Assembly (NCBI RefSeq): GCF_014697615.1
Contig: NZ_JACJSD010000015.1
Coordinates: forward strand, 62,001-126,000
DNA: 64,000 bases
Source: Nostoc sp. FACHB-280
Lineage (GTDB): Bacteria; Cyanobacteriota; Cyanobacteriia; Cyanobacteriales; Nostocaceae
Direction: 5' to 3'
The position numbers and the translations under genes were made by a program. Below are positions 21,147-56,056 of the stretch, piece by piece. Numbering within the stretch: the stretch's first letter is position 1; the number at the start of each line of letters is the position of its first letter. The notes beneath the pieces were generated by a model. It saw only the letters and a list, made by a program, of their open reading frames with translations, had not been told where the DNA came from and did no database searches.

Positions 21147-22068
21147 ATTTTCATCATACTTTCCTACCGCATCCCAATTGTAGCGATTTGTTTTAGTAAT
21201 TCATCGTTGCGAGGTATTCAGAATAATTCAAGATTATGAATAAAAATGAAATACAAATTCTTCTGTAACTATTAATTAAAGGGTGTTGAGATAAATGAGG
21301 TACAAGTGTCAAACCAAAAATCATGTAGAGACGTTACATGTAACTTCTCTACAGCATCTCGTGAATATGCAACCAACTGTAAGAATTTTATGCAATAAAT
21401 AAACAACTTTCATCTGGAGAATTGATGATGCTGCTTGATAGCGTTTTTATCCCTACCTTTAATTGGAAAAAGTAGAATTTTTACTTGGGTTTTAGCTACT
21501 TGGTTGGTGAGTTACTGGCAAAGTCAAGCCGGGGTTAAATGCCATCTAGTGACTGATTTTTTTGCCACTTATTCTCATTAGACTGAATATTTTGATGCTG
21601 TTGTGTTCTCCTATAAGTCTCTCTAGCAATTCATCTCCAGAATCTCTACCAAAATTGTCAGCATTCTAAGTTCAGAATTCTCAGCTTGCGTTAGTTATCT
21701 TTAATTGCCGTGAATGTAAATAAATTCAACTATTAACTTAACAAAAATTTAGGATTAGGACTTTACATATTTGTTACTAATCTTGAGCAGAAAAATATGT
21801 ACAAGCAAGTTGCAACTAGATTATAGTAGTTTTACGTAAAAACCAATGATAACAATCGGCTAAATAATATTAACCTTTCACCAATATAGTGATTACTGAT
21901 GAAATCGTAACAGGAGATACTTACTTACCTAATTGTGACAGCCTAGAAGTTTCACAGATAACCCTGGAAATTGTCAACAATAATAGATGAAATTTTGCAT
22001 AAATATGCGAAATGCAACTGATCTGTGTTGTATGAACATACCGTAAAGCCCAAGAGAAGGGATTGACT
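21147..22068. other. Long intergenic region
   Basis: About 920 bases without a supported gene, apart from the palindrome at 21324-21353. It must contain divergent promoters for the phosphoesterase (minus) and the DUF928 gene (plus). The short minus-strand frame overlapping 21921-22169 has no support. Confidence 0.5.
21324..21353. repeat. Dispersed TAGAGACGTT palindrome, copy 2
   Basis: TGTAGAGACGTTACA is followed directly by its inverse with one mismatch (TGTAACTTCTCTACA). It has the same outer 10 bases as copies 1 and 3 but a different centre (ACATGT here, GTATAC in the others). Confidence 0.7.
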
Positions 22069-23031
22069 ATGAAACCGTTTTTCCTGATAAGATGCGTCTG
22101 TGTTACCTTAATGCTTGGCTCTCTGTTACCTGTTAGCTTAGATAAAGTAGTAGCCGCGCCTGATAACATTGCTCAAGCTCAGTCAAACTATAACCAATAT
22201 ATGCAGTTGGGTTACAGTGCTACTCGTCAGCGCAATTACTCAGCCGCTTTAAATTATTTTAAACAAGCACTCCAGGAAAGACCAGGCGATCGCTACGCTA
22301 CCACAGCGATGAATAATATCCAAATTTATGTAGCTCGCGATCGCCGCAATGGTAACAGCAAGCGACAAACTTATGTTACCTACATTCCCCGAAACTTAGG
22401 CAAACCAGCACGGCAAATTCAGGGAGGAACTCGCGGTGTCCCACGTTTGAGCGAAAGCGGTGAGGTTTGTATACCAGGGAAAAAACGCTTAATGGCACTC
22501 ACACCAACCTTGGATGTGATGCAAAGAACTACATCTGCTTATCCGACGTTTTTCTTTTATGTACCGCAAACATCTGCACCAGTTATGGAACTGGTATTGT
22601 CAGATGAAGAAGATAATGTTGTGTATCAACAAACCTTGCCAACACCGGGCAAAGCTGGTATTGTCAGCCTGAGTTTACCAGAAAAACCCGATGTGCCGAG
22701 TTTAAAAGCTGGTAAAACTTATCACTGGGACTTTTCGGTGGTTTGCGATCGCAGCGATCGGCAGCAAGATTATGTAGTTTCTGGCTCAATTGAACGTATT
22801 AACCCTGATGCTGCCCTGATATCAGAAATCAGGCAAGTCAAACCAGAAGAACAAGCGGCAATTTATGCCCTGTCTGGTTTTTGGGAAGATTCTTTAGCAA
22901 TTCTGAGTGAATTGCGTAAATCTAGCCCTGATGACCAGACAATTAAAAATGATTGGGAAGATTTGTTACGCTCTGGAGGTTTAGAAGAAATTGCTCAAGA
23001 ACCTCTAGTACCTTGCTGCACAATCAATTAG
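22069..23031 (+). CDS. Secreted TPR-DUF928 protein
   Basis: The ATG at 22069 is preferred over TTG 22063 because AGAAGGG lies just upstream and it gives a good signal peptide (FFLIRCVCVTLMLGSLLPVS...AAP). A TPR unit follows (about 40-80, YMQLGYSATRQRNYSAALNYFKQAL), then the DUF928 domain. This has SGEVCIPGKKRLMALTPT, YPTFFFYVPQT, LVLSDEEDNVVYQ and GKTYHWDFSVVCDRSDR, a lumenal or periplasmic Ig-like fold with two conserved Cys. The C-terminus adds a helical region. DUF928 is nearly cyanobacterial and its function is not known. A second DUF928 protein sits at 61045-61794, beside a sensor kinase. Confidence 0.82.
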   Translation: MKPFFLIRCVCVTLMLGSLLPVSLDKVVAAPDNIAQAQSNYNQYMQLGYSATRQRNYSAALNYFKQALQERPGDRYATTAMNNIQIYVARDRRNGNSKRQTYVTYIPRNLGKPARQIQGGTRGVPRLSESGEVCIPGKKRLMALTPTLDVMQRTTSAYPTFFFYVPQTSAPVMELVLSDEEDNVVYQQTLPTPGKAGIVSLSLPEKPDVPSLKAGKTYHWDFSVVCDRSDRQQDYVVSGSIERINPDAALISEIRQVKPEEQAAIYALSGFWEDSLAILSELRKSSPDDQTIKNDWEDLLRSGGLEEIAQEPLVPCCTIN

Positions 23032-23390: not shown

Positions 23391-26300
23391 ATGATTAGTC
23401 AAGTCTCAGAAAAAAAGATGCACATTGTCAGGTGGCTGCTGGCGATCGGCTGGCTGACATTAATCTTTTCTTTATTTTATGATCCCCTTTCAGTTTGGTT
23501 AACTGACCCCAGTAATACTGCCAGTCCCTTTCATCTCCATCCGGAGAAATATCTCGATCCTGATGATTGCGTCGCAGTCCAAGGTGTCTGCTTACCAGAA
23601 CAACCCTATCCTATGGGAGCGCGGATCTTCTGGGCGATGGTACTGCCCATCGGGATCATGATTTTGGTGTTATTTGGGCATGAACTCTGGCGGCGGATTT
23701 GTCCTTTATATTTCTTCTCCCAAATTCCTCGCGCCTTGGGGATTCAACGCAAGCGCAAAGTTGTCAATCCCGAAACAGGTAACGTTCGTTATGAACTAGC
23801 TGGGGTAGAAAAGGAATCTTGGTTAGGGCGGAACTACCTCTACCTGCAAATGTTCCTCTTTTACCTGGGCTTGAACATCCGTATTTTATTTGTGAATAGC
23901 GATCGCACCGCAATGGCTTTGTTTTTGCTATTCACCATCACCTCTTCCATTGGAGTGGGTTATTTATTCAAGGGCAGAAGTTGGTGTCAATACTTCTGCC
24001 CAATGGCTCCCGTGCAGATGTTTTATACAGGCCCCAGAGGCTTATTAGGTACTGATGCTCACCTCAAGCCGCCCCAAAGTATCACTCAATCCATGTGTCG
24101 GTCGGTAGATACCAGTGGTAACGAAAAAAGTGCCTGTGTTAGCTGTCAATCTCCTTGTATAGATATTGACTCCGAACGCTCTTATTGGGAAGGCATTACC
24201 AGACCAGACCAAAAATTAGTGTTCTACACCTATTTTGGCTTGATGTTTGGCTTCTACTTCTACTACTTCTTGTATGCAGGCAACTGGGACTACTACTACT
24301 CAGGAGCTTGGACACATGAAGAAGGACAATTAAGCACCCTATTCAACCCTGGTTTTTACATCTTTGGTCACACTATTCCCATCCCCAAAATTATTGCCGC
24401 CCCGATTACCATTGGGATCTGTGCTGCACTGAGCTACTTGATTTGTCAAACATTAGAAAATGTTTATCGCGCCTTCCTGAAACGCCAAGGTAGAAACGTT
24501 AGCGAAGAAGATATATTACACGTCTGCTTTGTATTGTGTACATTTATCTCCTTCAACGTCTTCTTTTCCTTTGGTGGTCGTCCCAACATCAGCTTGTTTC
24601 CCCAATGGGGGATTTTGGTACTGAACGCCTTTATAGTCCTCGTAAGCAGCTTGTGGTTACACAGAAGTTTAGCCCGGAGCAGAGATAATTATTCTCGTGA
24701 AAGCTTGGCTAGTAGCTTGCGTCGTCAGTTGAACAAACTCGCCGTAGACTGGAGCAAATTCCTGGAAGGGCGATCGCTCCAAGACCTCCTACCCAACGAA
24801 GTCTATGTTCTAGCCAAAGTCCTGCCTGGTTTTAGCCGAGCCGACAGACTGCGTGTCTATAAAGGCGTATTGCAAGAATCTCTCCAAGAAGGTAACGTCC
24901 AATCTGCCGACAGCTTAGAAGTTCTCAAAGATGTCCGTAAAGAATTGAACGTCAGCGATGAAGAGCATTACTCCGTCCTCGCTGAACTTGGTGTTGAAGA
25001 TCCATCACTTCTTGATCCTCAAAAACAACTCAGCCGGGAAAACCAACTGCGGATTGATAGTTATCGCCGCGCCCTCGAAATAGTCATCCAAGAACTCGTA
25101 GAAACAGGCACACCCTTAGCAGATGCCTTTGAGCGCAAACAAAAGCAAATTATGAGCTTGCGCCAAGAATATGCCATCTCATCTGCTGAACAAGAACAAG
25201 TCTTGGCAGAAATGTTTAACCAAGATGGCGCACTGCTGCGGACAGCAGAACAGCTACTCTCCCAACTACAAGACCTAGCTGTTCGTTATCAAGCCCTGCA
25301 AAACTTAGTTTCTAACCCCCATGCACCTGTTTACCTCTTGCTGCGACAAGCAGTCCAAGAAAAACAAAAACTGATTGTTACCCAGTTACTCAGCATCCTA
25401 GAAATATTAGGAGATACCCCCGAAGCCCTAGATATTGCTCGTTCCATTGGTGTACTAGCAGCTAACATCCTCGGAGAAATTCTGCGATCCAATGAAGAGC
25501 AGTCTAGATGGATGTCTCGTTTGAGCATGAGAGTCATCGCTTCCTTACGCCAAGCCAAAGACCTAGTAACTCAATCAGTTTCCGTAGCGACAGACTTTAA
25601 TAATGGCATCGCCGATACCCAAATCGACGTTCCGGGGAACAATAGTGCCAGTAGGAATGCCACTCCCACCACCGCCACTTGGAGTTCCATCGTCGCGCCT
25701 ACCCAAATTCCCGAACCTGCTTTACGTTCTGATGTGATTATTGATGTCTTAATGCAACTTTTACAAGACATCGATCCCTTAGTCCAAGCAGCCAGTTTGT
25801 ATGCACTACATCAAATTGACCCCAGTCTTGGTTTCCAACAAGCCCGTCAGCTGTTAGATACAAAGTCCATCAAAGACAATTTGGTCATTGAAACAGCCGA
25901 ACGCATTCTGGGTCAAGGACAGCCCCACGGCAAAACCACCGTTCCTACCATGATTGCTCAAGTCAAAATCATGGGACGTGTAGAACGACGAGTATTTCAA
26001 CAGCCTACAGTGCGCGTCGGAAGAGAAGTTGGCAACGACATCATCATTTCCGATAACCGTGTTTCTCGCCAACACGCCATCTTCTATGTAGATGAAAAAG
26101 GCGTGAGTGTGAAAGACTTGGGTAGTAGCAACGGTCTACGGATTGGCAAGACGCAAATCTTTGACCAGCAAACACAACTCCAACAAGGTGATGTTGTCCG
26201 CTTTAGCAGTGGTGACGATATCGTGATTCTGGTGCAGTGGGAAATGCAAGCCCAACAAGGAGATACCATCGCGGATGCTTTAGGAACCTTAGAAAAACTG

Positions 26301-26726
26301 TTGTGGCTGTATAAGAGTAGTTTCTTCTCTGGTTTAAAAGCCAACGTCTTAATTGATTTGGCGAAAAATAGCCATGTGCGCGTATATCGCCCCGAAGAAG
26401 AAATTTGCCGGATGGGTACACCTGCCCATGACTTGATTGTTTTAATTGATGGTGAGGCGAGAGTCAGCCAAAGTATGGGCAATCAAGATATGTCAGGGAT
26501 GATTTCACCTGGGCAAACGATTGGTGAATTGGAAGTATTAAACCACACCAATTATGCTTCAACCATCGTCGCATCTGGTACTAGAACCAAGACACTCAGA
26601 ATCAATGCCGAGAATTTTGAGGCAGTGCTGGCACAAGACACATTACTAGCCAGAAATATCTTGGAGCTTTTGAGTAATCGTCTGCAAGCAAGTATGGGAC
26701 AAGCTTGTTCAATAACGCAACTCTAA
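23391..26726 (+). CDS. NapH-like polytopic redox protein fused to FHA and cyclic-nucleotide-type domains
   Basis: This is a 1111-residue mosaic. About eight transmembrane helices fill residues 10-430. In them lie NapH/NosR-like cysteine motifs: RRICPLYFF, GRSWCQYFCPMAP (Cys199, Cys203) and a soluble cluster motif C-x2-C-x3-C (Cys249, 252, 256). The last has one Cys fewer than a classical [4Fe-4S] ferredoxin motif. A helical region (about 435-780) follows. Then come an FHA domain (about 855-950, VGREVGNDIIISDNRVSRQHAIF with Gly877/Arg878, and SSNGLRIG) and a CAP-ED/cNMP-binding-like domain (about 970-1105, with PGQTIGELEVLNHT). It probably passes electrons across or along a membrane under control of phosphothreonine binding. 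It precedes an FHA-flavoreductase gene by 167 bases. Confidence 0.85.
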   Translation: MISQVSEKKMHIVRWLLAIGWLTLIFSLFYDPLSVWLTDPSNTASPFHLHPEKYLDPDDCVAVQGVCLPEQPYPMGARIFWAMVLPIGIMILVLFGHELWRRICPLYFFSQIPRALGIQRKRKVVNPETGNVRYELAGVEKESWLGRNYLYLQMFLFYLGLNIRILFVNSDRTAMALFLLFTITSSIGVGYLFKGRSWCQYFCPMAPVQMFYTGPRGLLGTDAHLKPPQSITQSMCRSVDTSGNEKSACVSCQSPCIDIDSERSYWEGITRPDQKLVFYTYFGLMFGFYFYYFLYAGNWDYYYSGAWTHEEGQLSTLFNPGFYIFGHTIPIPKIIAAPITIGICAALSYLICQTLENVYRAFLKRQGRNVSEEDILHVCFVLCTFISFNVFFSFGGRPNISLFPQWGILVLNAFIVLVSSLWLHRSLARSRDNYSRESLASSLRRQLNKLAVDWSKFLEGRSLQDLLPNEVYVLAKVLPGFSRADRLRVYKGVLQESLQEGNVQSADSLEVLKDVRKELNVSDEEHYSVLAELGVEDPSLLDPQKQLSRENQLRIDSYRRALEIVIQELVETGTPLADAFERKQKQIMSLRQEYAISSAEQEQVLAEMFNQDGALLRTAEQLLSQLQDLAVRYQALQNLVSNPHAPVYLLLRQAVQEKQKLIVTQLLSILEILGDTPEALDIARSIGVLAANILGEILRSNEEQSRWMSRLSMRVIASLRQAKDLVTQSVSVATDFNNGIADTQIDVPGNNSASRNATPTTATWSSIVAPTQIPEPALRSDVIIDVLMQLLQDIDPLVQAASLYALHQIDPSLGFQQARQLLDTKSIKDNLVIETAERILGQGQPHGKTTVPTMIAQVKIMGRVERRVFQQPTVRVGREVGNDIIISDNRVSRQHAIFYVDEKGVSVKDLGSSNGLRIGKTQIFDQQTQLQQGDVVRFSSGDDIVILVQWEMQAQQGDTIADALGTLEKLLWLYKSSFFSGLKANVLIDLAKNSHVRVYRPEEEICRMGTPAHDLIVLIDGEARVSQSMGNQDMSGMISPGQTIGELEVLNHTNYASTIVASGTRTKTLRINAENFEAVLAQDTLLARNILELLSNRLQASMGQACSITQL

Positions 26727-26731
26727 GAGTT

Positions 26732-26760
26732 TAACTGGGATGGTAGTACCGTCCCAGTTA
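26732..26760. other. Strong hairpin between the two FHA genes
   Basis: TAACTGGGA (26732-26740) pairs with TCCCAGTTA (26752-26760), with an inner GGTA/TACC pairing. It lies right after the stop of the upstream FHA gene. It is followed by A's, not T's, on the plus strand, so it may stabilise or partly attenuate the transcript rather than end it. Confidence 0.5.
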
Positions 26761-26893
26761 AAAATATCAGCATGAGTTTTGTAGCACGCCTCATTACCTC
26801 GATTGAGTTTAGGTAATGATTACAACTAAAAGCAGAATTCGGCAGAAATTCCTGCGTATAAACACAGAAAAATTGACGTATTAGGTAATTAAT

Positions 26894-28648
26894 ATGCTTA
26901 AACTCAGAATCATTGATCCTCAGAAACCCAACGAACTCAAAGAACTAGACCTCAACCTAGATACCATGCTCAATCATGAGTGTCTAATTGGCCGCTATCC
27001 CAACTGTAATGTAGTGCTGGATAGTGCCGAAGTTAGTCGGATGCACGGTAAAATTTCTTTAAAAAATGGTAATTATTATTACACTGATTTAGCCAGTCGG
27101 GCTGGTTCACGGTTAAATGCTGACCAGATCCAAATCAATCAAGATTATCCTCTGAAATCTGGAGATATGATGCAGATTGGTCGGTTCTTTTTGATGGTAA
27201 TCAGCTTAGTTGCCAGCAATGAACCGACCATGATTGATTTGAATATTAACGTTAATACTAACGTTGTCACCACAAGCAATGGTCAGGCAATACAACAAGA
27301 AATAGCGATCGCACCTGTTGCACCCACACCAACCCCAGAACCCCTACCAACTCCTGCGCTTCCCACCAAAGACCCGCAAGAGTATATGCCCTTAGCAACG
27401 GTAGATCCCAGCCAAATTGAGCGGTGGATGAAAGGCGATTTAACCGTCCAATGTATCCAAGTTATCGATGAAACCCACGATGTTAAAACCTTCCGCTTCG
27501 TGGCTGACCCACCAACGCTCTTTACCTATAAACCAGGTCAGTTTATCACCCTCGACCTAGAAATTAACGGCGAACAGGTATTACGTTCCTATTCCATCTC
27601 ATCTACACCTTCTCGTCCCCACACCCTAGAAATTACTGTTAAGCGTGTGCCTGCACCAGCAGATGCGGGGCCAGATGTCCCCCGTGGTTTAGTTTCCAAC
27701 TGGTTGCACGACAACGTCAAAGCAGGTAGCGTCCTGAAAGTAAATGGCCCAACAGGTAAATTTACTTGTTTTGCCAACCCTTCACCCAAACTGTTGCTAA
27801 TTTCTGCTGGTAGTGGCATCACACCTATGATGTCTATGTCGCGCTGGGTATATGACACCGCCTCAGATGTGGATATCGTCTTTTTCCATTGCGCTCGTAG
27901 TCCCAGAGATATCATTTACCGCCAGGAACTCGACTGGTTAGCAGCCAACCATCCCAAGTTTAATCTCGCAATTAGCATTACCCGTCGTGAACCTGGTCAA
28001 AGTTGGATGAGTTTCACCGGCAGACTAGATGCAGCAATGTTAAAACTGATTGCGCCAGACTATAAAGAACGCACAGTTTATGTATGTGGGCCGAATCCAT
28101 TTATGGAATCGGTCAATGACTTACTCGAAAGCATCGACTTCCCGATGCAAAACTACTACGAAGAAAGCTTTGGCCCGCCTCGGAAAAAAGTCAAAAAAGC
28201 CCCAGCACCTGCTCCAGCAAAAGTAGAAGTTGCTGCGGCTTCCGCAGGCAAAGGGCTACGCGAAATGCTTGGGAAAATCTCTACCGAAGCAGCACCCGTC
28301 CAAGATGTCGGAGCGCGTGTGGCCACAACCCCAGTCGCAGCAGCATCAGTTCCCGTTTCTCCCGCCCCAGCCTCTTCTAGTCAAACCCTTATAGTTTTCT
28401 CTAAATCGGGTAAAGAAGTCGCTTGTGATGGCGAAGAAACAATCCTCGATATGGCAGACCAAGAAGGCGTAAAAATCCGTAGTAGTTGCCGTTCTGGGGT
28501 TTGTGGGACTTGCAAAAAACGGAAGTTAGAAGGCGATGTCAAAATGGAAGGCTATGATCCTGAAGCTTTAGAAGAAAGTGAAATTAAAGAAGGCTATGTT
28601 TTAACTTGTGTAGCTTATCCAGTTGGTAAGGTAGTGATTGATGCTTAG
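26894..28648 (+). CDS. FHA-flavoreductase-[2Fe-2S] ferredoxin fusion protein
   Basis: The 584-residue soluble protein has three parts. An FHA domain fills residues 1-105 (LIGRYPNCNVVLDSAEVSRMHGKISL). After a Pro-rich linker comes an FNR-type FAD/NAD(P)H module: RSYSISSTP (FAD), ISAGSGITPMMSM and VYVCGPNPFM (nucleotide). After another Ala/Pro linker comes a plant-type ferredoxin domain with Cys532-x4-Cys537-x2-Cys540 and Cys572. The reductase-ferredoxin part resembles NADH oxidoreductases that reduce hybrid-cluster proteins (Hcr type); the FHA addition is unusual. It would take electrons from NAD(P)H to a partner, plausibly the preceding NapH-like protein, which also carries FHA. The stop converges with a pentapeptide-repeat gene 18 bases away. 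Confidence 0.88.
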   Translation: MLKLRIIDPQKPNELKELDLNLDTMLNHECLIGRYPNCNVVLDSAEVSRMHGKISLKNGNYYYTDLASRAGSRLNADQIQINQDYPLKSGDMMQIGRFFLMVISLVASNEPTMIDLNINVNTNVVTTSNGQAIQQEIAIAPVAPTPTPEPLPTPALPTKDPQEYMPLATVDPSQIERWMKGDLTVQCIQVIDETHDVKTFRFVADPPTLFTYKPGQFITLDLEINGEQVLRSYSISSTPSRPHTLEITVKRVPAPADAGPDVPRGLVSNWLHDNVKAGSVLKVNGPTGKFTCFANPSPKLLLISAGSGITPMMSMSRWVYDTASDVDIVFFHCARSPRDIIYRQELDWLAANHPKFNLAISITRREPGQSWMSFTGRLDAAMLKLIAPDYKERTVYVCGPNPFMESVNDLLESIDFPMQNYYEESFGPPRKKVKKAPAPAPAKVEVAAASAGKGLREMLGKISTEAAPVQDVGARVATTPVAAASVPVSPAPASSSQTLIVFSKSGKEVACDGEETILDMADQEGVKIRSSCRSGVCGTCKKRKLEGDVKMEGYDPEALEESEIKEGYVLTCVAYPVGKVVIDA

Positions 28649-29724: not shown

Positions 29725-30294
29725 ATGAAATTTATCTCTTACATCGTTATTGCTTGTCTAGTACTACTAACAGCTTGTGCTTCTCCTTCCAATGGTGCTG
29801 GGCCACAGCTAAAAGCTCAAGCCCAAATTAGTGGCCCTGGGATTACAGGGACGCTGAAAGCCGTGCAAAATAGTGAACTTCAGTCTGTTTGGGTGGCTGT
29901 AGAAATTAAAGGTGATCCCAAAATCTTGACTCCGGGATTACATGGTGTTCATATTCATGAAATAGGTGCTTGTGAAACAGGTACCGAAAAGCCTTTTAGT
30001 TCTGCTGGTGGACACTTCGACCCTGGCCCCTTTGGTTCATCCAAGCCGGTGGAAAAAAACCATCCTTATCATTTAGGTGATTTACCCAATATTAAAATTA
30101 ATCCCTTGGGTCAAGGTCGTTTAGAAGCATTTATTAGCAGTGTGAGTCTTACCGATAGTCCCATCAGCTTGTTTGATGGTGATGGTAGTGCTGTGATTAT
30201 CCATAAACTACAGGATCAAAAGAAGGCTGGTGGTACAGCCGATGAAGCTGGTGGTGGTCGTTTAGCTTGTGGTGCGATCGCCAAGGCAAGTTAG
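29725..30294 (+). CDS. sodC: Cu/Zn superoxide dismutase lipoprotein
   Basis: The 189-residue protein has a lipoprotein signal (LLTACAS, lipobox Cys18). SOD ligands are in order: HGVHIHEIGAC (two Cu His), SSAGGHFDPG (bridging His), NHPYHLGDLPN (Zn His), SLFDGDGSAVIIHK (Cu His) and the closing GGGRLACGAI with the second disulfide Cys. It would disproportionate superoxide in the periplasm. Cu/Zn SOD is less common in cyanobacteria than Fe or Mn forms. The start ATG has GAATC upstream and no strong ribosome site. A perfect hairpin terminator follows. Confidence 0.93.
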   Translation: MKFISYIVIACLVLLTACASPSNGAGPQLKAQAQISGPGITGTLKAVQNSELQSVWVAVEIKGDPKILTPGLHGVHIHEIGACETGTEKPFSSAGGHFDPGPFGSSKPVEKNHPYHLGDLPNIKINPLGQGRLEAFISSVSLTDSPISLFDGDGSAVIIHKLQDQKKAGGTADEAGGGRLACGAIAKAS

Positions 30295-30493: not shown

Positions 30494-32620
30494 ATGTTTG
30501 CAGGGGCGAAAAAACTATTCACACAGCCAGTCATAGTTACTAGCGTGCTAGTTACACTAGTTTTGCTGGGGGTTCAAAGGCTGAGACTTCTAGAATACTT
30601 TGAATTAAAAGTCTTTGACCAAATGATGCAAAGGCGTGCAGATTTACCCCCTGACCCCCGCCTGTTGATTGTTGAATTTACAGAAGAGGATATCCAACAA
30701 CTCAAGCATGGCACCCCCACAGATGAAGAACTAAATAGGCTGTTAGGTAAATTAGAAAGTAACCAAGCCAGTGTTATTGCTTTAGACTTCTTTCGAGATG
30801 TACCTATAGATCCTGGCCATACCCAACTAATTAACCGTCTGCAAACAAGCAATAAAATTATTCCGATTTGCAGCACAACAACACCCCCGCCACCAGGACT
30901 AGATGCCAATAATGTTGGATTTGCCGATTTGCCAGAAGACCCTGATGCAGTTATTCGCCGCGCCTTACTATTTGTTAATCCTGAACCAAAAGCGCCTTGC
31001 CAAAGCCAACAGTCTCTAGCAGTATTAGCCGCACTCAAATATCTAGACGACACAGCCAAAATCCAACCAGAAATTACCCAAACAGGTGAGGGATTACAAT
31101 TAAAGCTGGGAAAAACCCTGTTTCATCGTTTACCAGCAGACGCAGGCGGTTATTTAGCCGCAGATAATGGCGGTTTTCAAATTTTGCTCAACTACCGTGC
31201 CTTTCATAATATTGCCCGGAAAGTTAGTTTTATAGAAGTACTCAACAATCAAGTTAATCCTGATTGGGTTAAGGGCAAAATCGTTTTAATTGGAGCCACA
31301 GCACCCAGTAAGCAGGATATTCGTAATACTCCTTATGCCACTGGTAGACAAGACAATACTGGCAAGATGCCTGGAATTGTGATTCATGCTCATATTGTCA
31401 GTGAAATTCTCAGTGCAGTTCTTGACCAAAGACGAATATTTTGGTACTTCCCGGAATGGGGAGAAGTAATTTGGCTGTGGGGTTGGACTGTCATCGGTGC
31501 ATTGATTGGATGGAAAATTAAACATCCAATACTTCTGGGATTATCTGGTGGCGGTGCTTTGGTTTGCTTGGTAGGTGGCGGCTTTATCATCTTTACTCAA
31601 GCTGGATGGGTACCAATAGCACAGCCTGTCTTGGGATTAATCGCAGCTGCTGGCAGTGTAGTTGTTTACACTGCATACTATGAAAAAATACAGCGAGATA
31701 AAATTGCCCATCAGATTCAAGAACAAGAAAAAACAATAGACCTCTTAAAATCTTTATTACGAGAAGGTAGTAATACTGCTAACGAAGCTAATCAACCTGT
31801 TGATAGTCAGCCCCAAAGGGATCAGTTGCTGAACCACCGTTACAAAGTGACAAATGTATTAGGTTCAGGGGGTTTTGGTTATACTTACTTAGCAGATGAT
31901 ACTAAGCGCCCTGGTTCGCCAAAATGTGTTGTCAAGCATTTACAACCTGCTCAGAAAGACCCCAGATTTTTAGAAGTTGCTAGACGTTTATTTAAGGCAG
32001 AGGCAGAAATCTTAGAGATTTTGGGACAGCACAAGCGCATTCCGCAACTATTGGCTTATTTTGAAGAAAATCAACAATTTTATCTAGTACAGGAATATGT
32101 CAAAGGACATTGTTTACAAGATGAATTGGTTGTTGGTAAGCGTCTTGAGGAAGCTGAGGTAATTAAAATTTTAAGGGATGTTTTGAAGGTACTAGTATTT
32201 GTCCATGATCACAATGTCATCCATCGAGATATTAAACCGAGCAATTTGATGCGACGGGAAACAGACGACAGAATAGTGTTGATTGACTTTGGTGCAGTTA
32301 AACAAATTCAGCCACAGCAAGAAGAGGAAAGTTTAACAGTAGCTGTGGGTACTCTGGGTTATGCAGCGCCTGAACAACTCATGGGTCAGCCCAGGTTAAA
32401 CAGTGATATTCATGCCTTGGGTATGATTGGAATTCAAGCTTTAACTGGAAAAGTTGCTAAAGAAATTGAACGTGACCCGCAGACAACTGTACTAACTTGG
32501 CGAGATAAGGCACAAGTTTCTGATGGGTTGGCGGTGATATTAGAAAAGATGACTTCTTTTGATTATCTCAGAAGATATCAAACTGCTAAAGAAGTTCTTG
32601 CGGATTTGGATAAGCTCTAG
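30494..32620 (+). CDS. CHASE2-domain serine/threonine protein kinase
   Basis: The 708-residue receptor has one N-terminal TM (about 13-31) and an extracytoplasmic CHASE2 sensor domain (about 35-290, with PDPRLLIVEFTEEDI, LDFFRDVPIDPGH and VLIGATAPSKQD). Three C-terminal TM helices (about 318-400) come next, then a coiled linker. The Hanks kinase runs from Arg449 to about 700: GSGGFGYTY loop, Lys481, catalytic Asp579 in HRDIKPSN, Asp598 in DFG, and APEQ. All catalytic residues are intact. The ligand is unknown. The kinase could supply phosphothreonine for FHA domains such as the two encoded just upstream, a functional guess only. A second CHASE2 receptor, with a histidine kinase, is at 59132-61015. 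Confidence 0.92.
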   Translation: MFAGAKKLFTQPVIVTSVLVTLVLLGVQRLRLLEYFELKVFDQMMQRRADLPPDPRLLIVEFTEEDIQQLKHGTPTDEELNRLLGKLESNQASVIALDFFRDVPIDPGHTQLINRLQTSNKIIPICSTTTPPPPGLDANNVGFADLPEDPDAVIRRALLFVNPEPKAPCQSQQSLAVLAALKYLDDTAKIQPEITQTGEGLQLKLGKTLFHRLPADAGGYLAADNGGFQILLNYRAFHNIARKVSFIEVLNNQVNPDWVKGKIVLIGATAPSKQDIRNTPYATGRQDNTGKMPGIVIHAHIVSEILSAVLDQRRIFWYFPEWGEVIWLWGWTVIGALIGWKIKHPILLGLSGGGALVCLVGGGFIIFTQAGWVPIAQPVLGLIAAAGSVVVYTAYYEKIQRDKIAHQIQEQEKTIDLLKSLLREGSNTANEANQPVDSQPQRDQLLNHRYKVTNVLGSGGFGYTYLADDTKRPGSPKCVVKHLQPAQKDPRFLEVARRLFKAEAEILEILGQHKRIPQLLAYFEENQQFYLVQEYVKGHCLQDELVVGKRLEEAEVIKILRDVLKVLVFVHDHNVIHRDIKPSNLMRRETDDRIVLIDFGAVKQIQPQQEEESLTVAVGTLGYAAPEQLMGQPRLNSDIHALGMIGIQALTGKVAKEIERDPQTTVLTWRDKAQVSDGLAVILEKMTSFDYLRRYQTAKEVLADLDKL

Positions 32621-35074: not shown

Positions 35075-36871
35075 ATGTCTGCTGAATATTTTTTGAGTCT
35101 GAAAGATTATAGGCGATCGCTCAATCGACTGATCTTCCTAGCTTTGTTTCTTGGCAATTTATCTCCCAGTCTTGTGCAAGCACAGACGGGAAATACTCAT
35201 TTAGTAGCTCAAGCCAGACCAGATTTACCACCACCAGAAAATTTACCAAGACCACAACTACCGCAACCAACTCCACCTGAAACTCCCACCTTACCATCGC
35301 CAGAAGATTTATTTCGCACTCCCAACGAAACCACTCCACCACCAGAAACAATCCCCAGTGGGATACAAGATACAATTCGCGTTGACCGTTTTGAAGTAAT
35401 TGGTAGTACTGTATTTAGCAGTGCAGAACTGGCAAAAGCCACACAGGAATTTACTGGTAAACCCATCACCTTTGCAGAATTGCTCAGAGCCAGTGATGCT
35501 ATTACCAAACTCTATACAGAAAAAGGTTACATTTCTTCAGGAGCATTTATCCCAGCTGATCAAACCTTCAAGACTAGAGGCGGTATCGTCAAAATTCAAG
35601 TGATTGAAGGTAGTGTAGAAAGTATAGAAGTTAGAGGACTCAAACGACTCAACCCGGATTATGTGCGGAGTCGCATCGCTGTAGCGACAGGTAAACCCTT
35701 AAACGTCAACAAATTACTTCAAGCACTGCAACTATTACAACTAAACCCTTTAATTAAAAATATTTCGGCGGAGTTGGCAGCTGGTTCTCGTCCTGGGACT
35801 AGTGTAATTGATATTAGGGTATCTGAAAATAAAACATTCAGCGCCCAGGTGAATTTAAATAACAATCGAGTTCCAAGTATTGGCAGTTTTCAAAGACAAA
35901 TTCAATTTAACCAAGCCAATTTATTGGGATTAGGTGATGGACTTTCTGTTGCTTATGCCAACACCGATGGCAGTAATGATGTTGATGTTAGCTACACATT
36001 ACCAGTTAATCCCTACAATGGGACTGTGCAGTTTCAATATAACTACACTTCTAGCAATGTTGTGGAAAAACCTTTTGATATTTTAGATATTGAAGGTAGA
36101 TCCCAAGACTTTGCCATTACCTTTCGCCAACCACTGTTGCAAACCCCTACCACAGAATTTGCCTTGGGAATTACAGCCAATCGCCGCAACAGTGATATTG
36201 GCTATTTAGAAGCTTTGGCTGGAGAACGTGTTCCCTTTCCTTCGCCGGGATCTGTGGATGGCCAAACTCGGCTTTCGGTGCTGCGATTTTTTCAAGATTG
36301 GACACAACGCAATAGTAGAGAAGTATTTGCAGCGCGATCGCAATTTAGTTTTGGAATCGATGCCTTTGATGTTACCAACAGTGGCGCACCACCAGATAGT
36401 AGATTTTTCTCTTGGCGGGGACAAGCCCAATGGGTACGCCTGTTAGCACCGGAAACCTTACTTGTGTTACGAGCTGATGCTCAATTAGCCGACAGAGCAT
36501 TAGTACCCCTAGAACAGTTTGGTTTGGGTGGTCAAGCAACAGTGCGGGGCTATCGCCAAGATTTACTTTTGACAGATAATGCTGTTTTTGTGTCGGCTGA
36601 GTTACGTTATCCGATTCTCCGCGCCCCGCAATTAGGAGGTGTACTACAGCTAACGCCATTTATTGATTATGGTACTGCTTACAACAGTTCCAATCGTGCT
36701 GATCCTGATCCTAATAGCCTTGCTTCTGTTGGGTTGGGATTACTATGGCAAAGCGATCGCATTAATGCCCGATTTGATTGGGGTATCCCTTTAATTGATG
36801 CCAATTCTCAGAATAATACTTTGCAGGAAAATGGTTTGTATTTTTCTTTAGTTTATACTCAACCTTTTTAA
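35075..36871 (+). CDS. TpsB/FhaC-type outer-membrane translocator (ShlB family)
   Basis: The 598-residue protein has a signal peptide ending near LVQA (about 35), then a Pro-rich segment. POTRA_2 follows (about 92-170, DRFEVIGSTVFSSAEL...YISSGAF), then a second POTRA (IQVIEGSVESIEVRGL). A 16-strand-type beta barrel continues to the terminal Phe (VYTQPF). The barrel signature motif VRGYRQD (about 490) is intact. It secretes a partner exoprotein (TpsA) in two-partner systems. No TpsA gene lies in the window; the next gene is a CHAT-domain protein 181 bases downstream, same strand. Confidence 0.9.
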   Translation: MSAEYFLSLKDYRRSLNRLIFLALFLGNLSPSLVQAQTGNTHLVAQARPDLPPPENLPRPQLPQPTPPETPTLPSPEDLFRTPNETTPPPETIPSGIQDTIRVDRFEVIGSTVFSSAELAKATQEFTGKPITFAELLRASDAITKLYTEKGYISSGAFIPADQTFKTRGGIVKIQVIEGSVESIEVRGLKRLNPDYVRSRIAVATGKPLNVNKLLQALQLLQLNPLIKNISAELAAGSRPGTSVIDIRVSENKTFSAQVNLNNNRVPSIGSFQRQIQFNQANLLGLGDGLSVAYANTDGSNDVDVSYTLPVNPYNGTVQFQYNYTSSNVVEKPFDILDIEGRSQDFAITFRQPLLQTPTTEFALGITANRRNSDIGYLEALAGERVPFPSPGSVDGQTRLSVLRFFQDWTQRNSREVFAARSQFSFGIDAFDVTNSGAPPDSRFFSWRGQAQWVRLLAPETLLVLRADAQLADRALVPLEQFGLGGQATVRGYRQDLLLTDNAVFVSAELRYPILRAPQLGGVLQLTPFIDYGTAYNSSNRADPDPNSLASVGLGLLWQSDRINARFDWGIPLIDANSQNNTLQENGLYFSLVYTQPF

Positions 36872-37052
36872 TAAGTCTGAAGTTGTAATCATAAAAAGAC
36901 TTTGGAAATCAAAAAATAAACCACTTTTACCTACTCACACAGAATTAATTACATACATTCTTTTCTTGTTCCCTATATCTACAAATGAATCTAATTTTGT
37001 GCAACTACTGATCAAATCTTTTTTGTCTGGTTAAATTAAGAATCTAAAAATT

Positions 37053-39866
37053 ATGTCTGCACTAATTTTTTTAGCGACAATATCACAAATTACTCAGCCA
37101 GTTGCCTTGATTCCCAACTCTTACCAAGTGGCGATGCAAAATGTCACTGCACCTATCACAGAAAATCTGCTATCAGCAAATCCGCAACAAACTTTAGAAC
37201 AGGGAATACAACTTTACCGAACGGAAAAGTTTACCGAAGCTGCTAAATTGCTTCAGCAAGCGGCGGGAGGCTTTCAAGCACAAGCAGATCATCTCAATCA
37301 AGTCTTAGCATTAAATTATCTGGCATTGGCAGAACAGCAAATTGGAGAATTACCCCAAGCGCAAAAAGCGATCGCGGATAGTTTGGCATTATTAAAAATA
37401 GCGGCGCAAAGAAATTCCTACGACTATTTATCAATCCTAGCACAAGCTTGGAACACTCAAGGACAAATACAATTAGCATCAGGACATTCCCAAGAAGCAT
37501 TAACAAGTTGGGAACAAGCAACGGCTATTTATACTAAATTGGGTGATGATGCGGGGAAAATTGGTAGCCAACTGAATCAAACTCAAGCATTACAAGCATT
37601 AGGACTATATCGTCGCGCAAGAATTACCTTAATTCAGGTAAATGAATTACTCGAAAAACAACCAACTTCTCCCCTAAAAGTGGCGGGACTGTTGAATTTA
37701 GGTAATACATTGCGGTTGATGGGTGATTTAACTCAAAAAAATACTCAGGGAAAAGCAATCGAACAACTTGGTTCTTTGCAAGTATTAGAGAAAAGTTTGT
37801 CTCTAGCCACACAAGTATATCCACAATTAATTCCTGAAATTCAGTTGAGTTTAGGAAACACTGCTCAAGCTTTGAGTGTAGGGCAGAATCCTGAAGAAAA
37901 AAGCCAAAAACTTGCCGATGCTTTAGATTATTACACTAAAGCTGCTCTAGCTAAATCACCATTAACTCGGTTACAGGCAAAACTGAATCAAATGCGCTTA
38001 TTAATGGATCAGCAAAAATGGCAGCAAGTCCAAGGCTTATTACCAGAAATTCAGCAACAACTCGATGCTGTACCAGCAAACCGAAAAACTATATATGCGC
38101 GGATTCACTTTGCTCAGAGTTTGACTTGTTTCAAACAACTAACTGAACCTGTAATGGCGGGAATTAATGCTAATTGTCCTAAAAATGAAATATTCGCTGA
38201 TGGGAGTTTCAGTAATGTCAAAAACCTCGAAACTGTGCAATTAACTGGGGCAAATGTGGAATGGAAAGCGATCGCCCAAATGATTGCCAGTGCAGTTGAC
38301 CAAGCTAAAATCCTCAAAGATAGGCGTGCAGAAGCTTATGCTTTAGGCACATTAGGTAATTTATACGAACAAACTCACCAGTGGCAAGAAGCCCAACAAT
38401 TGACTCAGCAGGCTTTAAAATTGGCTGAAGGAATTGGTGCTGCTGATATTGCTTATCGTTGGCATTGGCAATTGGGTAGAATTCTCAAGGCGCAAGATAA
38501 TCCGCGACGTAATGAACAAGGGGCGATCGCAGCTTACACCAAAGCGGTGAATATTCTCAAATTATTGCGGAGTGATTTAGTAGCGATTAACCGCGAAGTC
38601 CAATTCTCCTTTCAAGAAGGAGTCGAACCGGTTTATCGGGAACTTGTGAGTTTATTGCTGCAAAATTCGCCCTATCAAGAAGATTCCGCAGCTAATCAAC
38701 AAAATCTCAAAACTGCCAGGGATGTGATTGAATCACTGCAATTAGCTGAATTAGATAACTTTTTTCGCACAGCTTGTTTAGATGCTAAACCTGTGCAGAT
38801 TGACGAAATTGATCCTAAAGCCGCAGTCATTTATCCGATTATTTTACGCGATCGCTTAGAGGTGATTGTTTCTTTACCTAACAAAGCCCAAAACCAAAAA
38901 CAAAACTTATTATTACGCTCCAAACCTATTCCAGTTTCCCAAACAGAAGTAGAAAAGACTATTCAAGAACTACGAGCCAAATTAGTCACACGTTCAACGC
39001 GAGAATTTTTGCCAATTTCCCAAAAAGTTTATAACTGGTTAATTAAAGATATCGAACCTCAATTACAAGCACACAAAGTAGAAAACCTAGTGTTTGTTTT
39101 AGATGGCGCATTGCGGAGTGTACCAATGGCCGCACTTCATGATGGGAAAGAATATCTGATTCAGAAAGGTTATAATATTGCACTCACACCAGGGTTGCAC
39201 CTACTACCAACTCGTTCCTCAAGTAGAGATAAACCACGCACCATTGCAGCCGGAATCACAGAAGCCATCGGAAACTTTGAAGGATTACCCAGTGTTGAAC
39301 AAGAAATTAACTCTATTAAACAACAAGTACCAGCGCGAGTCTTGCTAGATAGTCAATTTACTAAAATTGCCTTAGAAAAAATAATCAAATCCTTTAATGC
39401 ACCAGTGGTTCATCTTGCAACTCACGGTCAATTTGCTTCTAACGCCGAAGATACCTTTATTTTGACTTGGAAAGATTCGCAAATTAAAGACCTAACCTTA
39501 GTCGGCGATCGCGTTAATGTTAACGAATTAAGTTCATTATTGCAAACCAGAGAGACTAGCCAAAGAAATGCGATCGAGCTATTAGTTTTGAGTGCTTGTC
39601 AAACTGCTACTGGCGATAAACGAGCTGGCTTAGGAATTGCTGGATTTGCATTACGTTCTGGGGCGAGGAGTACATTAGCAACATTATGGAGTGTTGATGA
39701 TCAAGGCACTGCCATGATTATGGGAGAGTTTTATAAACAGTTTGCTAATACCAAAGAGACTAAAGCAGAAGCTTTAAGACGCGCTCAACTTCTACTTTTA
39801 GCAGACCCTAATTATAGGCATCCTTTTTATTGGTCTCCTTATGTTCTAGTAGGTAATTGGTTATAA
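37053..39866 (+). CDS. TPR-CHAT (caspase-like) protein
   Basis: The 937-residue protein has many TPR-like helices (about 50-560, e.g. AEAYALGTLGNLYEQTHQWQ), then a CHAT peptidase domain (about 670-937). The predicted catalytic dyad is intact: His791 in LATHGQF and Cys849 in LSACQTATGD, in clan CD (caspase/separase-like). ALRSGARSTLATLWSVDD and PYYW-like FYWSPYVLVGNWL close the domain. The N-terminus has a short hydrophobic start, possibly a signal. CHAT proteins act in processing or cell-death-like pathways in bacteria. It probably shares a transcript with the TpsB gene upstream. Confidence 0.92.
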   Translation: MSALIFLATISQITQPVALIPNSYQVAMQNVTAPITENLLSANPQQTLEQGIQLYRTEKFTEAAKLLQQAAGGFQAQADHLNQVLALNYLALAEQQIGELPQAQKAIADSLALLKIAAQRNSYDYLSILAQAWNTQGQIQLASGHSQEALTSWEQATAIYTKLGDDAGKIGSQLNQTQALQALGLYRRARITLIQVNELLEKQPTSPLKVAGLLNLGNTLRLMGDLTQKNTQGKAIEQLGSLQVLEKSLSLATQVYPQLIPEIQLSLGNTAQALSVGQNPEEKSQKLADALDYYTKAALAKSPLTRLQAKLNQMRLLMDQQKWQQVQGLLPEIQQQLDAVPANRKTIYARIHFAQSLTCFKQLTEPVMAGINANCPKNEIFADGSFSNVKNLETVQLTGANVEWKAIAQMIASAVDQAKILKDRRAEAYALGTLGNLYEQTHQWQEAQQLTQQALKLAEGIGAADIAYRWHWQLGRILKAQDNPRRNEQGAIAAYTKAVNILKLLRSDLVAINREVQFSFQEGVEPVYRELVSLLLQNSPYQEDSAANQQNLKTARDVIESLQLAELDNFFRTACLDAKPVQIDEIDPKAAVIYPIILRDRLEVIVSLPNKAQNQKQNLLLRSKPIPVSQTEVEKTIQELRAKLVTRSTREFLPISQKVYNWLIKDIEPQLQAHKVENLVFVLDGALRSVPMAALHDGKEYLIQKGYNIALTPGLHLLPTRSSSRDKPRTIAAGITEAIGNFEGLPSVEQEINSIKQQVPARVLLDSQFTKIALEKIIKSFNAPVVHLATHGQFASNAEDTFILTWKDSQIKDLTLVGDRVNVNELSSLLQTRETSQRNAIELLVLSACQTATGDKRAGLGIAGFALRSGARSTLATLWSVDDQGTAMIMGEFYKQFANTKETKAEALRRAQLLLLADPNYRHPFYWSPYVLVGNWL

Positions 39867-54343: not shown

Positions 54344-56056
54344 ATGGTTTTTCAAAGGTCGCGGTTTGCCACTCATCTTGTAGTAATCTCTGCTTTAGTG
54401 TTCCTGACGGGGTGTAACACTAACTCAACTGGCGATAATAATTTTTCCGGGTTAACAGTCAAGTTACTAGTTGGTAGTGCTTTGGGCGACTTTTGCAACC
54501 AAGCGACAAAAAACTTTAATGCTACCCAACCAAAGTTAGATAACGGTACAGCTTTTCAAGTGAAATGCGAATCTTTGGGTAGTGGTGATGTCGTAACTGA
54601 GGTAGTGGCTTTAGCCAATCAATTGCAAAAGGGGACAGTACAAGCCGACGCACCAGATTTTCCCCCAATTATTTCTCTGGATGGGGATATATATCACAGT
54701 CAGTTAATTTACCGGATGAACCAGCTGTTTCCGGGGAAAAATTACATCCCAGAAATCACAGAGTCGCCACTGGTTGCAAACACGCCAATGGTGTTTATGG
54801 CGCAAGCTGATGTAGCAAGTGGTTTGCGGAAAGTTGCAGATCCTTATAAAGCTTTGGTGACGGCTAAAACTCACCGCGATATCGACCCAACTTCGCCACC
54901 TTTAACAGTTCATTATGTACATTCTGCCCCGACTCGTTCAAATTCTGGACTGCAAACACTGGTAGCCCAATACGCCAGTGTATCGGGTAAGCGTCCTGAA
55001 GAAATCACAGTGGCGGATGTGCAGCAGTTTCAACCCCAAATTCAGCAAATTCAAAGCAAAATTACTCGTTATGGGGTTTCGACTAATTCTCTCGCCCAAA
55101 CGATGGTAAAGAATGGGCCATTTTGGGCTTCTATTGGTTCAGTGTATGAATCGAGTGTAATTGTAGCCAATTCTGGTTTAGCAACGGGACAGCAGCGTTA
55201 TCAGGCAGTTTATCCCAAAGCCACGTTTACTTCTAATATGCGGGCAATTGTACCGAATGCACCTTGGGTAAGCACGGATGAAAAGGCAGCTGCGGAGAAG
55301 TTTATCACTTATTGGCGATCGCCAGAAACACAAAAAATTGCCACCGATTTGGGTTTACGTCCCGGAACCCCAGGAGTCGCTTTAGGTGCTAAGTTCAGTC
55401 CCGAATTTGGTGTAGAAGCCCAAGCCAAATATGATTCCTTGCGTCCACCAAAGCCGGAAGTTGTCGATGCAATGTTGAAATCATGGCAAGAATTGGCGAA
55501 AAAACCTTCTTTAGTGGTGGTGGTTGTCGATTCTTCTGGTTCCATGTCGGGGGATAAATTACCAGCCGTCCAAAATACTTTACAAAACTATATTAAGAAC
55601 TTGGGGCCGAAAGAACAAATTGCCTTGATTGATTTTGATTCGGTAATTCGTCCGCCTGTATTAGTCGATGGTACACCCCAAGGACGCGATCGCGGTTGGC
55701 AATTTATCAATGGACTGCAAGCTGATGGTGGCACAAAATTATACGACGCAGCCTTAGAAGCGAGAAATTGGCTACAACAAAATTTGCGGAAAGATGCAAT
55801 TAACGCTGTGTTGATATTAACTGATGGTGAAGATGCCGGTTCAAAAATTAAGCTGGATGGGTTAGAACAAGAATTGAAAAAAAGTGGTTTTGCAACTGAT
55901 CAAAGAATTGGCTTTTTTACAATTGGCTATGGTAAGGAAGGAGAATTTAAACCTGATGTTTTAAAAGAAATTGCTGAGTTAAATGGAGGGTATTATTCTC
56001 AAGGTAATCCTGAGACGATTTCGCAAGTAATGTCAAACTTACAGGTGGAATTTTAA
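54344..56056 (+). CDS. Solute-binding/VWA lipoprotein (first gene of a four-gene operon)
   Basis: The 570-residue protein has a lipobox (FLTGCNTN, Cys24) and a solute-binding domain (about 40-360, with NTPMVFMAQADVA and the loop TRSNSGLQTL typical of sulfate/molybdate-type binding proteins). A VWA domain follows (about 388-565) with metal site Asp396-Ser-Ser-Gly-Ser in VVDSSGSMSG, and GGTKLYDA and LTDGEDAG. The fusion sits outside the membrane. It is followed 8 bases later by a membrane coiled-coil gene, then by a second binding protein. No permease or ATPase is nearby, so transport is unlikely; sensing or scaffold work is more likely. Confidence 0.85.
   Translation: MVFQRSRFATHLVVISALVFLTGCNTNSTGDNNFSGLTVKLLVGSALGDFCNQATKNFNATQPKLDNGTAFQVKCESLGSGDVVTEVVALANQLQKGTVQADAPDFPPIISLDGDIYHSQLIYRMNQLFPGKNYIPEITESPLVANTPMVFMAQADVASGLRKVADPYKALVTAKTHRDIDPTSPPLTVHYVHSAPTRSNSGLQTLVAQYASVSGKRPEEITVADVQQFQPQIQQIQSKITRYGVSTNSLAQTMVKNGPFWASIGSVYESSVIVANSGLATGQQRYQAVYPKATFTSNMRAIVPNAPWVSTDEKAAAEKFITYWRSPETQKIATDLGLRPGTPGVALGAKFSPEFGVEAQAKYDSLRPPKPEVVDAMLKSWQELAKKPSLVVVVVDSSGSMSGDKLPAVQNTLQNYIKNLGPKEQIALIDFDSVIRPPVLVDGTPQGRDRGWQFINGLQADGGTKLYDAALEARNWLQQNLRKDAINAVLILTDGEDAGSKIKLDGLEQELKKSGFATDQRIGFFTIGYGKEGEFKPDVLKEIAELNGGYYSQGNPETISQVMSNLQVEF

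Follow-up and report, generated by a model that had tools for sequence, protein, structure and literature searches.

A putative kinase-controlled electron-transfer unit in Nostoc and other cyanobacteria: a membrane iron-sulfur protein paired with an FHA-reductase-ferredoxin fusion

Introduction

NADPH oxidases (NOX) are defined by a haem-containing ferric-reductase transmembrane (TM) domain, are regulated by phosphorylation and docking, and have superoxide dismutase (SOD) and peroxidases as partners; NqrF has its ferredoxin domain first and a membrane anchor. Here, we describe a two-gene locus within a 64,000-nucleotide (nt) stretch of Nostoc sp. FACHB-280 (contig NZ_JACJSD010000015.1, positions 62,001 to 126,000 of the forward strand; hereafter the window) that encodes a membrane iron-sulfur (Fe-S) protein, which we call NAP, and a fusion of an FHA domain with a flavoreductase and a ferredoxin, which we call RED. 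By sequence comparison, NAP and RED form a conserved unit in many cyanobacteria, and we propose, with evenly balanced confidence, that they act as one kinase-gated electron-transfer module that would move electrons from NAD(P)H to an acceptor outside the cytoplasm, possibly oxygen.

Cyanobacteria and other phytoplankton produce extracellular superoxide that is attributed largely to flavoenzymes such as NADPH oxidases, and the review and 2025 survey that say so name, in these passages, no cyanobacterial enzyme and describe one Synechococcus strain as insensitive to a flavoenzyme inhibitor (PMC6247811, PMC12684733). According to the abstract of PMC5016757, the way in which photosynthetic microbes export electrons has still to be established. 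Our literature search found no description of the NAP-RED unit, in agreement with an initial sequence-only reading of this DNA, which knew of no described system with this arrangement. The unit may help explain electron export or extracellular oxygen radicals in cyanobacteria and, being a compact, deletable pair of genes with a kinase, it makes both questions testable; if our proposal is true, it would be a clear case of phosphopeptide-reading domains fused to an electron donor and, in some lineages, to its membrane acceptor.

Results

Architecture of NAP and RED

The two open reading frames (ORFs) lie on the same strand, 167 nt apart, with the coordinates and lengths first ascribed to them.

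23391..26726, + strand: NAP, 1111 amino acids (aa), ATG start; Fe-S membrane protein with an 8-TM core, a helical region, an FHA domain and a cNMP-type domain
23391..24680, + strand: membrane core of NAP, residues 1-430; eight predicted TM helices, N terminus inside (structure model, loop charges, conservation)
26010..26204, + strand: FHA domain of NAP, residues 874-938; Pfam E-value 2.5e-15; R878, S892, H895 and N914 present
26379..26639, + strand: cNMP-type domain of NAP, residues 997-1083; Pfam cNMP_binding, E-value 2.1e-13; without the canonical phosphate-cassette Arg
26894..28648, + strand: RED, 584 aa, ATG start; FHA, FAD/NAD(P)H reductase and [2Fe-2S] ferredoxin
26984..27181, + strand: FHA domain of RED (Pfam), residues 31-96; Arg34, Ser48 and His51 kept, Asn replaced by Ala70
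27461..28117, + strand: FAD- and NAD(P)-binding domains of RED, residues 190-408; Pfam FAD_binding_6 (190-290) and NAD_binding_1 (302-408)
28406..28621, + strand: C-terminal plant-type [2Fe-2S] ferredoxin of RED; Fer2 (505-576), ligands C532, C537, C540 and C572

The description of RED as an FHA-flavoreductase-ferredoxin fusion was borne out by four Pfam domains, all above their curated cut-offs. Its catalytic chain is well kept: at 11 of 12 FAD/NAD positions the window residue recurs in 119-130 of 130 RED proteins (P400, at the remaining one, in 96), and the four ferredoxin cysteines are kept in 120-123 of 130. A structure model of RED (predicted local distance difference test, pLDDT, 73; linkers of low confidence) retrieved phthalate dioxygenase reductase, self-sufficient P450 fusions, b5 reductases and NqrF in a fold search, and for every one of the 25 NCBIfam models among the matches listed RED scored less than the curated cut-off. 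At three loci (L080, L190, L197), the reductase is split into separate ORFs, one for the FHA part and one for the reductase-ferredoxin part, possibly by decay or assembly error.

NAP is not a chance ORF, since nearly full-length homologues at 52-98% identity occur in related genomes and relatives are encoded in 431 genome stretches. Ten of the 11 genomes of the genus carry full-length NAP (G003 does not), and the nearest named relatives of this Nostoc-like genome include Nostoc sp. TH1S01 and Nostoc spongiaeforme FACHB-130 (98% each in the core). A structure model (mean pLDDT 79) predicts eight TM helices in the core of about 430 aa, and positive-inside loop charges over 53 homologues place both its N and C termini inside (mean K+R of 9.6, 8.2 and 4.6 in the inner loops; 2.6, 0, 0.8 and 1.5 in the outer loops). 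In this predicted topology, C104, C199, C203, C236, C249, C252 and C256 face the cytoplasm and C60 and C67 face outside. All of these cysteines were kept in 28 of 28 aligned homologues except C249 (27/28), as were H11, H97 and H377. In a 53-row core alignment C236, C249, C252 and C256 were invariant and C60 nearly so; this alignment omits L100, the same place as L042, which is the sole row of the 28 with Tyr at C249. The motif of the soluble cluster is C-x12-C-x2-C-x3-C; its four conserved cysteines would be enough for a [4Fe-4S] cluster, and the three-cysteine cluster of the sequence-only reading had left out C236. The core is followed by about 130 aa of conserved helical sequence, then by a region that weakly matches HEAT_2, and lastly by the FHA and cNMP-type domains, both of which were correctly recognised at the outset (Pfam matches above curated cut-offs).

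The label 'NapH-like' fits only loosely. All 53 homologous cores examined matched Fer4_5 at E≤1 (best 3.4e-8), but the window NAP stayed below the cut-off (17.8 bits vs. 22), and its alignment with Escherichia coli NapH by hhalign covered just 31 columns around the CxxxCP motif (probability 28%). The eight NCBIfam models that matched NAP (E≤1e-3) included no NapH-type model and neither NosR nor CcoG, in a library that presumably holds a NapH model. Solved structures gave no match to the NAP core, and napA, napG and napC were not recognised in the neighbour clusters by eye, no dedicated search having been made.

This topology also bears on a different destination for the electrons, in which NAP and RED would form an NAD(P)H:plastoquinone reductase, with NAP reducing quinone in the membrane as a kinase-controlled entry to respiratory or cyclic flow and nothing being exported. 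NapH-type proteins are quinol-linked, seven of the nine conserved NAP cysteines are cytoplasmic, and the FAD domain of RED is close to that of NqrF, the feeder of a quinone reductase. We nevertheless consider a plastoquinone reductase rather unlikely, as it leaves unexplained the conserved outer cysteine pair and the Cu/Zn-SOD and peroxidases described below.

Short core paralogues without FHA or cNMP-type domains occur in L031 (G000:C47:56917-58182), L032 and L034; the 429-aa one, 47% identical, adjoins a putative cation/proton antiporter (identified by eye), a layout found again in a second genome (L032). One core (L086) lies on a contig labelled Candidatus Gracilibacteria, which is probably cyanobacterial contamination of a metagenome-assembled genome.

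Pairing of the NAP core with RED

Within a sample of 386 cyanobacterial genomes, the core was present in 50 and RED in 15, all of them among the 50 (hypergeometric P = 6e-15, relatedness ignored; RED called at E≤1e-140, the next genome matching at 3e-41). RED and the core were adjacent in 10 of the 15 genomes, in one of which (G320) the core is a fragment, and unlinked in the other five. Two further samples, which overlap and were searched for RED alone, yielded it in 66 of 388 genomes at the level of the order and in 76 of 388 at that of the class.

We annotated 130 RED loci (the window, nine relatives and 120 hand-chosen from 160 listed places) and found the core upstream on the same strand within six ORFs in 104 and directly upstream in 101, with a median gap of 86 nt, 'directly' ignoring ORFs under 110 aa. 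The genes are thus conserved as neighbours in other genomes, as the proposal of a pair had implied, although these counts are of loci, which are not independent, rather than of events. No same-strand core was nearby in the remaining 26, some of which are cut by contig ends and others truly unlinked. On a tree of 115 of 170 cores (near-copies more than 88% identical and with the same label removed), the label 'pair' needs 11 changes, at least eight of them forced by well-supported branches; the pairing has therefore been gained or lost repeatedly. Loci were called 'solo' when the fetched stretch held no intact FHA-reductase ORF; several of these stretches end at contig edges (e.g. L059, L066, L078, L083), and the 42 solo loci include L080, where the reductase is split.

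It could be argued that RED is an ordinary oxygenase reductase of the GbcB/Hcr type that is the chance neighbour of an unrelated membrane protein. Its best NCBIfam match is indeed GbcB (NF058606, 391.7 bits, curated cut-off 500), and in one locus (L039) a gene that looks Rieske-like by eye adjoins RED convergently. However, all 15 RED genomes also carry the core, and the two genes are adjacent in more than three-quarters of the annotated loci, which makes a chance neighbour very improbable.

Ser/Thr kinases beside the unit

The window carries a kinase gene downstream of RED.

30494..32620, + strand: CHASE2-Ser/Thr kinase (Pfam CHASE2 and Pkinase)

An opposite-strand pentapeptide gene and a SOD gene set it apart from RED, and a CHASE2 kinase follows RED directly in L036, L037 and L038. 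Across the annotated loci, the gene immediately preceding NAP was a same-strand Ser/Thr kinase in 31 of the 98 with a visible upstream gene, and the gene immediately following RED was one in 9 of 125; same-strand slots farther away held 12 kinases in 506 genes (Fisher P = 1e-17). Opposite-strand slots three to seven ORFs upstream held 17 kinases in 246 genes, also above expectation, and a kinase was present within seven ORFs at 68 of 130 RED loci. The 21 genomes counted carry 20-65 kinase genes each; kinases were found with a model made from BLAST hits of the window kinase, a search that misses divergent ones. Two kinase genes overlap NAP by 4 nt (gap of -4; in L097, 4821/4818).

These kinases have at least three architectures. 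The seven scanned are WD40-kinases (upstream in L217 and L223, downstream in L201) and kinases with periplasmic-binding or ANF-receptor domains (directly downstream in L175, downstream past a 206-aa ORF in L185, and on the opposite strand in L196 and L211); the Nostoc/Scytonema-type kinase is of the CHASE2 form. The architectures fall in different clades of the core tree, and this convergence of different kinases on the unit is the strongest support for phosphorylation control. On genome context, a kinase-controlled unit is well supported; electron flow through it and the gating of that flow we infer. Cyanobacterial CHASE2, WD40 and ANF kinases are listed in PMC2176072, whose main text does not contain the word 'ferredoxin'.

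A cluster of putative histidine kinases was also present in 31 of 130 RED loci, most commonly three to four ORFs upstream, and the majority of them are encoded on the opposite strand; a Pfam scan of one, from L171, gave RsbRD_N, HisKA and HATPase_c domains.

FHA and cNMP-type domains

The FHA model matched the two proteins with 57.1 and 53.4 bits (cut-off 20.7), and the RED model has beta-strands over residues 1-100 (pLDDT about 88). We take the phosphothreonine contacts to be the Arg, Ser and Asn residues of Rad53 FHA1. In RED, the phosphate-contacting Arg and Ser were each kept in 118 of 124 FHA domains and His in 121 of 124; in NAP, the figures were Arg 45/50, Ser 39/50, His 50/50 and Asn 33/50. 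Phosphothreonine binding by these domains is plausible but not certain, the case for RED being the weaker. NAP proteins in most Leptolyngbya-like pairs have about 560-650 aa and are too short for FHA and cNMP-type domains, which makes the FHA of RED the general element.

The cNMP-type domain has Tyr in the window where we take an Arg of the phosphate cassette to mark cyclic-nucleotide binding; R stands at the best-aligned position in 13 of about 67 rows. Since this Arg is missing in most homologues, binding of a cyclic nucleotide by NAP is doubtful. We also considered an intramolecular phosphothreonine latch in RED, for which a [DE]-x-T-[IV]-[IV]-[DE]-like stretch after the FHA seemed conserved in Nostocaceae (41 rows), and rejected it, as T was present in only 15 of 130 rows of a wide alignment.

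So many regulatory domains might instead belong to a redox sensor or signalling hub, in which the FHA and cNMP-type domains, along with the kinase, would be informed of the redox state by the Fe-S core, with RED setting the state of the sensor. Solo cores with only a cNMP-type domain would suit such a sensor, as would the ParA-like ATPase found in 10 named loci. However, RED keeps a full catalytic chain, beyond what a sensor needs, and the short NAP of the Leptolyngbya-like pairs has no room for the output domains, which leaves a sensor decidedly unlikely.

Oxygen-, peroxide- and carbon-related neighbours

Between RED and the kinase, the window encodes a Cu/Zn-SOD.

29725..30294, + strand: Cu/Zn superoxide dismutase (PF00080, sole match in the genome; lipoprotein-like start by eye)

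In all 11 Nostoc/Tolypothrix-form genomes tested (the window's own, nine core-carrying genomes of its genus and one Tolypothrix-type genome), there was a single PF00080 match and it always lay in the NAP-RED cluster. Other loci have peroxidase neighbours. A first cluster of 19 peroxidase loci was inflated by RTX repeats, and eight were upheld after checking: a haem peroxidase (An_peroxidase) directly upstream of NAP and in the same orientation in L162 (Pfam) and L203 (PF03098 match); a vanadium-haloperoxidase-like gene in that same position in L165 (Pfam), L180 and L208; and a haloperoxidase-like gene downstream of RED, at a distance of 131 nt in L210 and of about 1.5 kb in L193 and L194. The genome places of the haloperoxidase-like genes of L180, L193, L194, L208 and L210 coincide with DUF6851 matches. 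Eight of 21 DUF6851 haloperoxidase places in 60 RED genomes, half of them from a single genus, were no more than 5 kb from RED, a ratio inflated by the hand-picking of these genomes, which deliberately include all eight known to carry a peroxidase by RED. We therefore disregard Poisson values computed for the peroxidases, which also assumed a rough chance rate of 0.0022 per gene and 62 An_peroxidase genes instead of the 68 matches listed. The peroxidases of L162 and L165, the two scanned with Pfam, contain RTX repeats, which suggests that they are secreted.

CmpABCD-type bicarbonate transporter genes stand beside the core in 6 of the 42 solo named loci; we replaced an initial assignment of this neighbouring ABC operon to the nitrate type (an ntrCD match) because CmpA outscored NrtA (611-614 vs. 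439-443 bits in the two loci tested). BicA directly follows RED in L259, L273 and L276, all of one family (f37); the L273 gene is above the BicA cut-off and the other two are 81-82% identical to it. These neighbours bear on a reading in which NAP would serve cell-surface metal reduction or general electron export as a reductant valve under carbon limitation, its acceptors outside the cell being Fe(III), Cu(II) or others. Bicarbonate transporters adjoining in two ways, at the solo core and after RED, speak for such export, but CmpABCD goes with the solo core and not with the pair, and no metal-uptake gene was recognised by eye in the neighbour clusters, which is not a systematic search; we consider metal or general export unlikely.

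Upstream of NAP, the window has a further recurring neighbour.

22063..23031, + strand: DUF928/TPR protein, found beside the unit chiefly in loci of the Nostocaceae, Tolypothrix and Scytonema types

Several other associations were observed. A core-plus-cNMP protein without the reductase stands beside the CmpABCD-type operon in L113, L089, L087, L119, L120 and L128, and likewise in L040, L041 and L043. A ParA/MinD-like ATPase is encoded beside the solo cores of L092, L093, L095, L116, L117, L118, L121, L125 and L130, the best Pfam match of the L117 protein being the iron-transfer NTPase NUBPL, and a tenth homologue lies farther from the core in L085. A small ferredoxin-like gene (132 aa), possibly an alternative electron donor, lies upstream of the core in L202 (directly) and L083. 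The window also encodes, one after the other, an ShlB/FhaC-type outer-membrane transporter and a TPR-CHAT protein (35075-39866), with related genes near the unit in L036 and L037, as well as a VIT-VWA protein (46533-49040) and a fusion of an extracellular solute-binding domain with VWA (54344-56056).

Discussion

In the module that we propose, cytoplasmic RED would accept hydride from NAD(P)H on its FAD and, as the chemistry of its family would suggest, reduce its own [2Fe-2S] ferredoxin domain one electron at a time; from this domain the electrons would pass to those Fe-S clusters of the 8-helix NAP core that face the cytoplasm. NAP would then carry the electrons into or across the membrane to an acceptor that we favour as lying outside the cytoplasm, the exit being near the conserved outer loop of C60 and C67. 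A neighbouring Ser/Thr kinase (CHASE2 in the window, WD40 or ligand-binding elsewhere) would phosphorylate a partner, and binding of the resulting phosphothreonine by the FHA domains would either dock RED on NAP or release it, a signal thereby switching the flow. With oxygen as the acceptor, superoxide would be formed, which in the Nostoc version the Cu/Zn-SOD would remove; the hydrogen peroxide would be consumed, in another clade, by a haloperoxidase or haem peroxidase.

A more specific version would make the unit a haem-free counterpart of NADPH oxidase, kinase-gated and passing electrons to oxygen, at once a valve for excess photosynthetic reductant and a peroxide source for the peroxidases, with a dedicated Cu/Zn-SOD in Nostoc types. 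The bicarbonate-transporter neighbours are what suggest the safety-valve role: low inorganic carbon raises cellular reductant, and a reductant valve would for that reason unite the bicarbonate and oxygen themes. We offer this version tentatively and regard it as doubtful.

Several observations weigh against the kinase-gated export module or its link to oxygen. RED is absent, at the threshold used, from 35 of the 50 core genomes; therefore, the core also works without RED. Control by a Ser/Thr kinase, for which the sequence-only reading had suggested the CHASE2 kinase at 30494, draws support from the kinase types that flank the unit in different clades, but 62 of 130 RED loci have no kinase within seven ORFs. 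Similarly, the phosphothreonine-binding residues of the FHA domains, whose loss in homologues would speak against such control, are kept at Arg, Ser and His in both proteins, but the canonical Asn is absent from most RED domains (N in 38 of 124, S in 29, D in 26; Ala in the window). Only 2 of 68 An_peroxidase matches in the 60 RED genomes are near RED, and the peroxidase-linked cores, or near-copies of them, are confined to a single clade of 25 rows in the core tree, so that independent events of peroxidase linkage may be few. Finally, the bicarbonate-transporter neighbours are not directly explained by peroxide chemistry.

Comparison with known systems

The NAP-RED unit, as proposed, resembles NOX/DUOX and SpNOX by functional analogy, in that an FAD/NAD(P)H domain of the ferredoxin-NADP reductase type would feed a membrane electron conduit; it differs in having Fe-S clusters instead of haem (no Pfam match to the haem-binding ferric-reductase domain was found in NAP or RED at E≤1e-3), in encoding conduit and flavoprotein as separate genes, and in the presence of ferredoxin and FHA domains. 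With the Fer4_5 proteins NapH, NosR and CcoG, NAP shares a membrane-embedded motif of the CxxxCP type, but it has eight TM helices, a single cysteine (C104) in the first motif, an outer cysteine pair and appended FHA and cNMP-type domains. RED has the FAD-NAD-[2Fe-2S] domain order of the GbcB/Hcr/PaaE reductases and, unlike them, an N-terminal FHA domain, long linkers and a membrane Fe-S protein as partner. Like NqrF of Na+-NQR, RED would be a flavin and [2Fe-2S] protein feeding a membrane complex; it scored, however, 91.6 bits against the NqrF cut-off of 295. The logic of a Ser/Thr kinase and an FHA domain controlling an enzyme recalls OdhI/GarA, and weak FHA matches were obtained in the NCBIfam scan; here, in contrast, the redox enzyme itself carries the FHA as a fusion, and an intramolecular Thr latch found no support. 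By analogy, then, the unit would work like an NADPH oxidase or a trans-plasma-membrane reductase, while belonging neither to the NOX nor to the NapH nor to the GbcB family by the tests made (no haem domain, no NapH-type model, a score below the GbcB cut-off).

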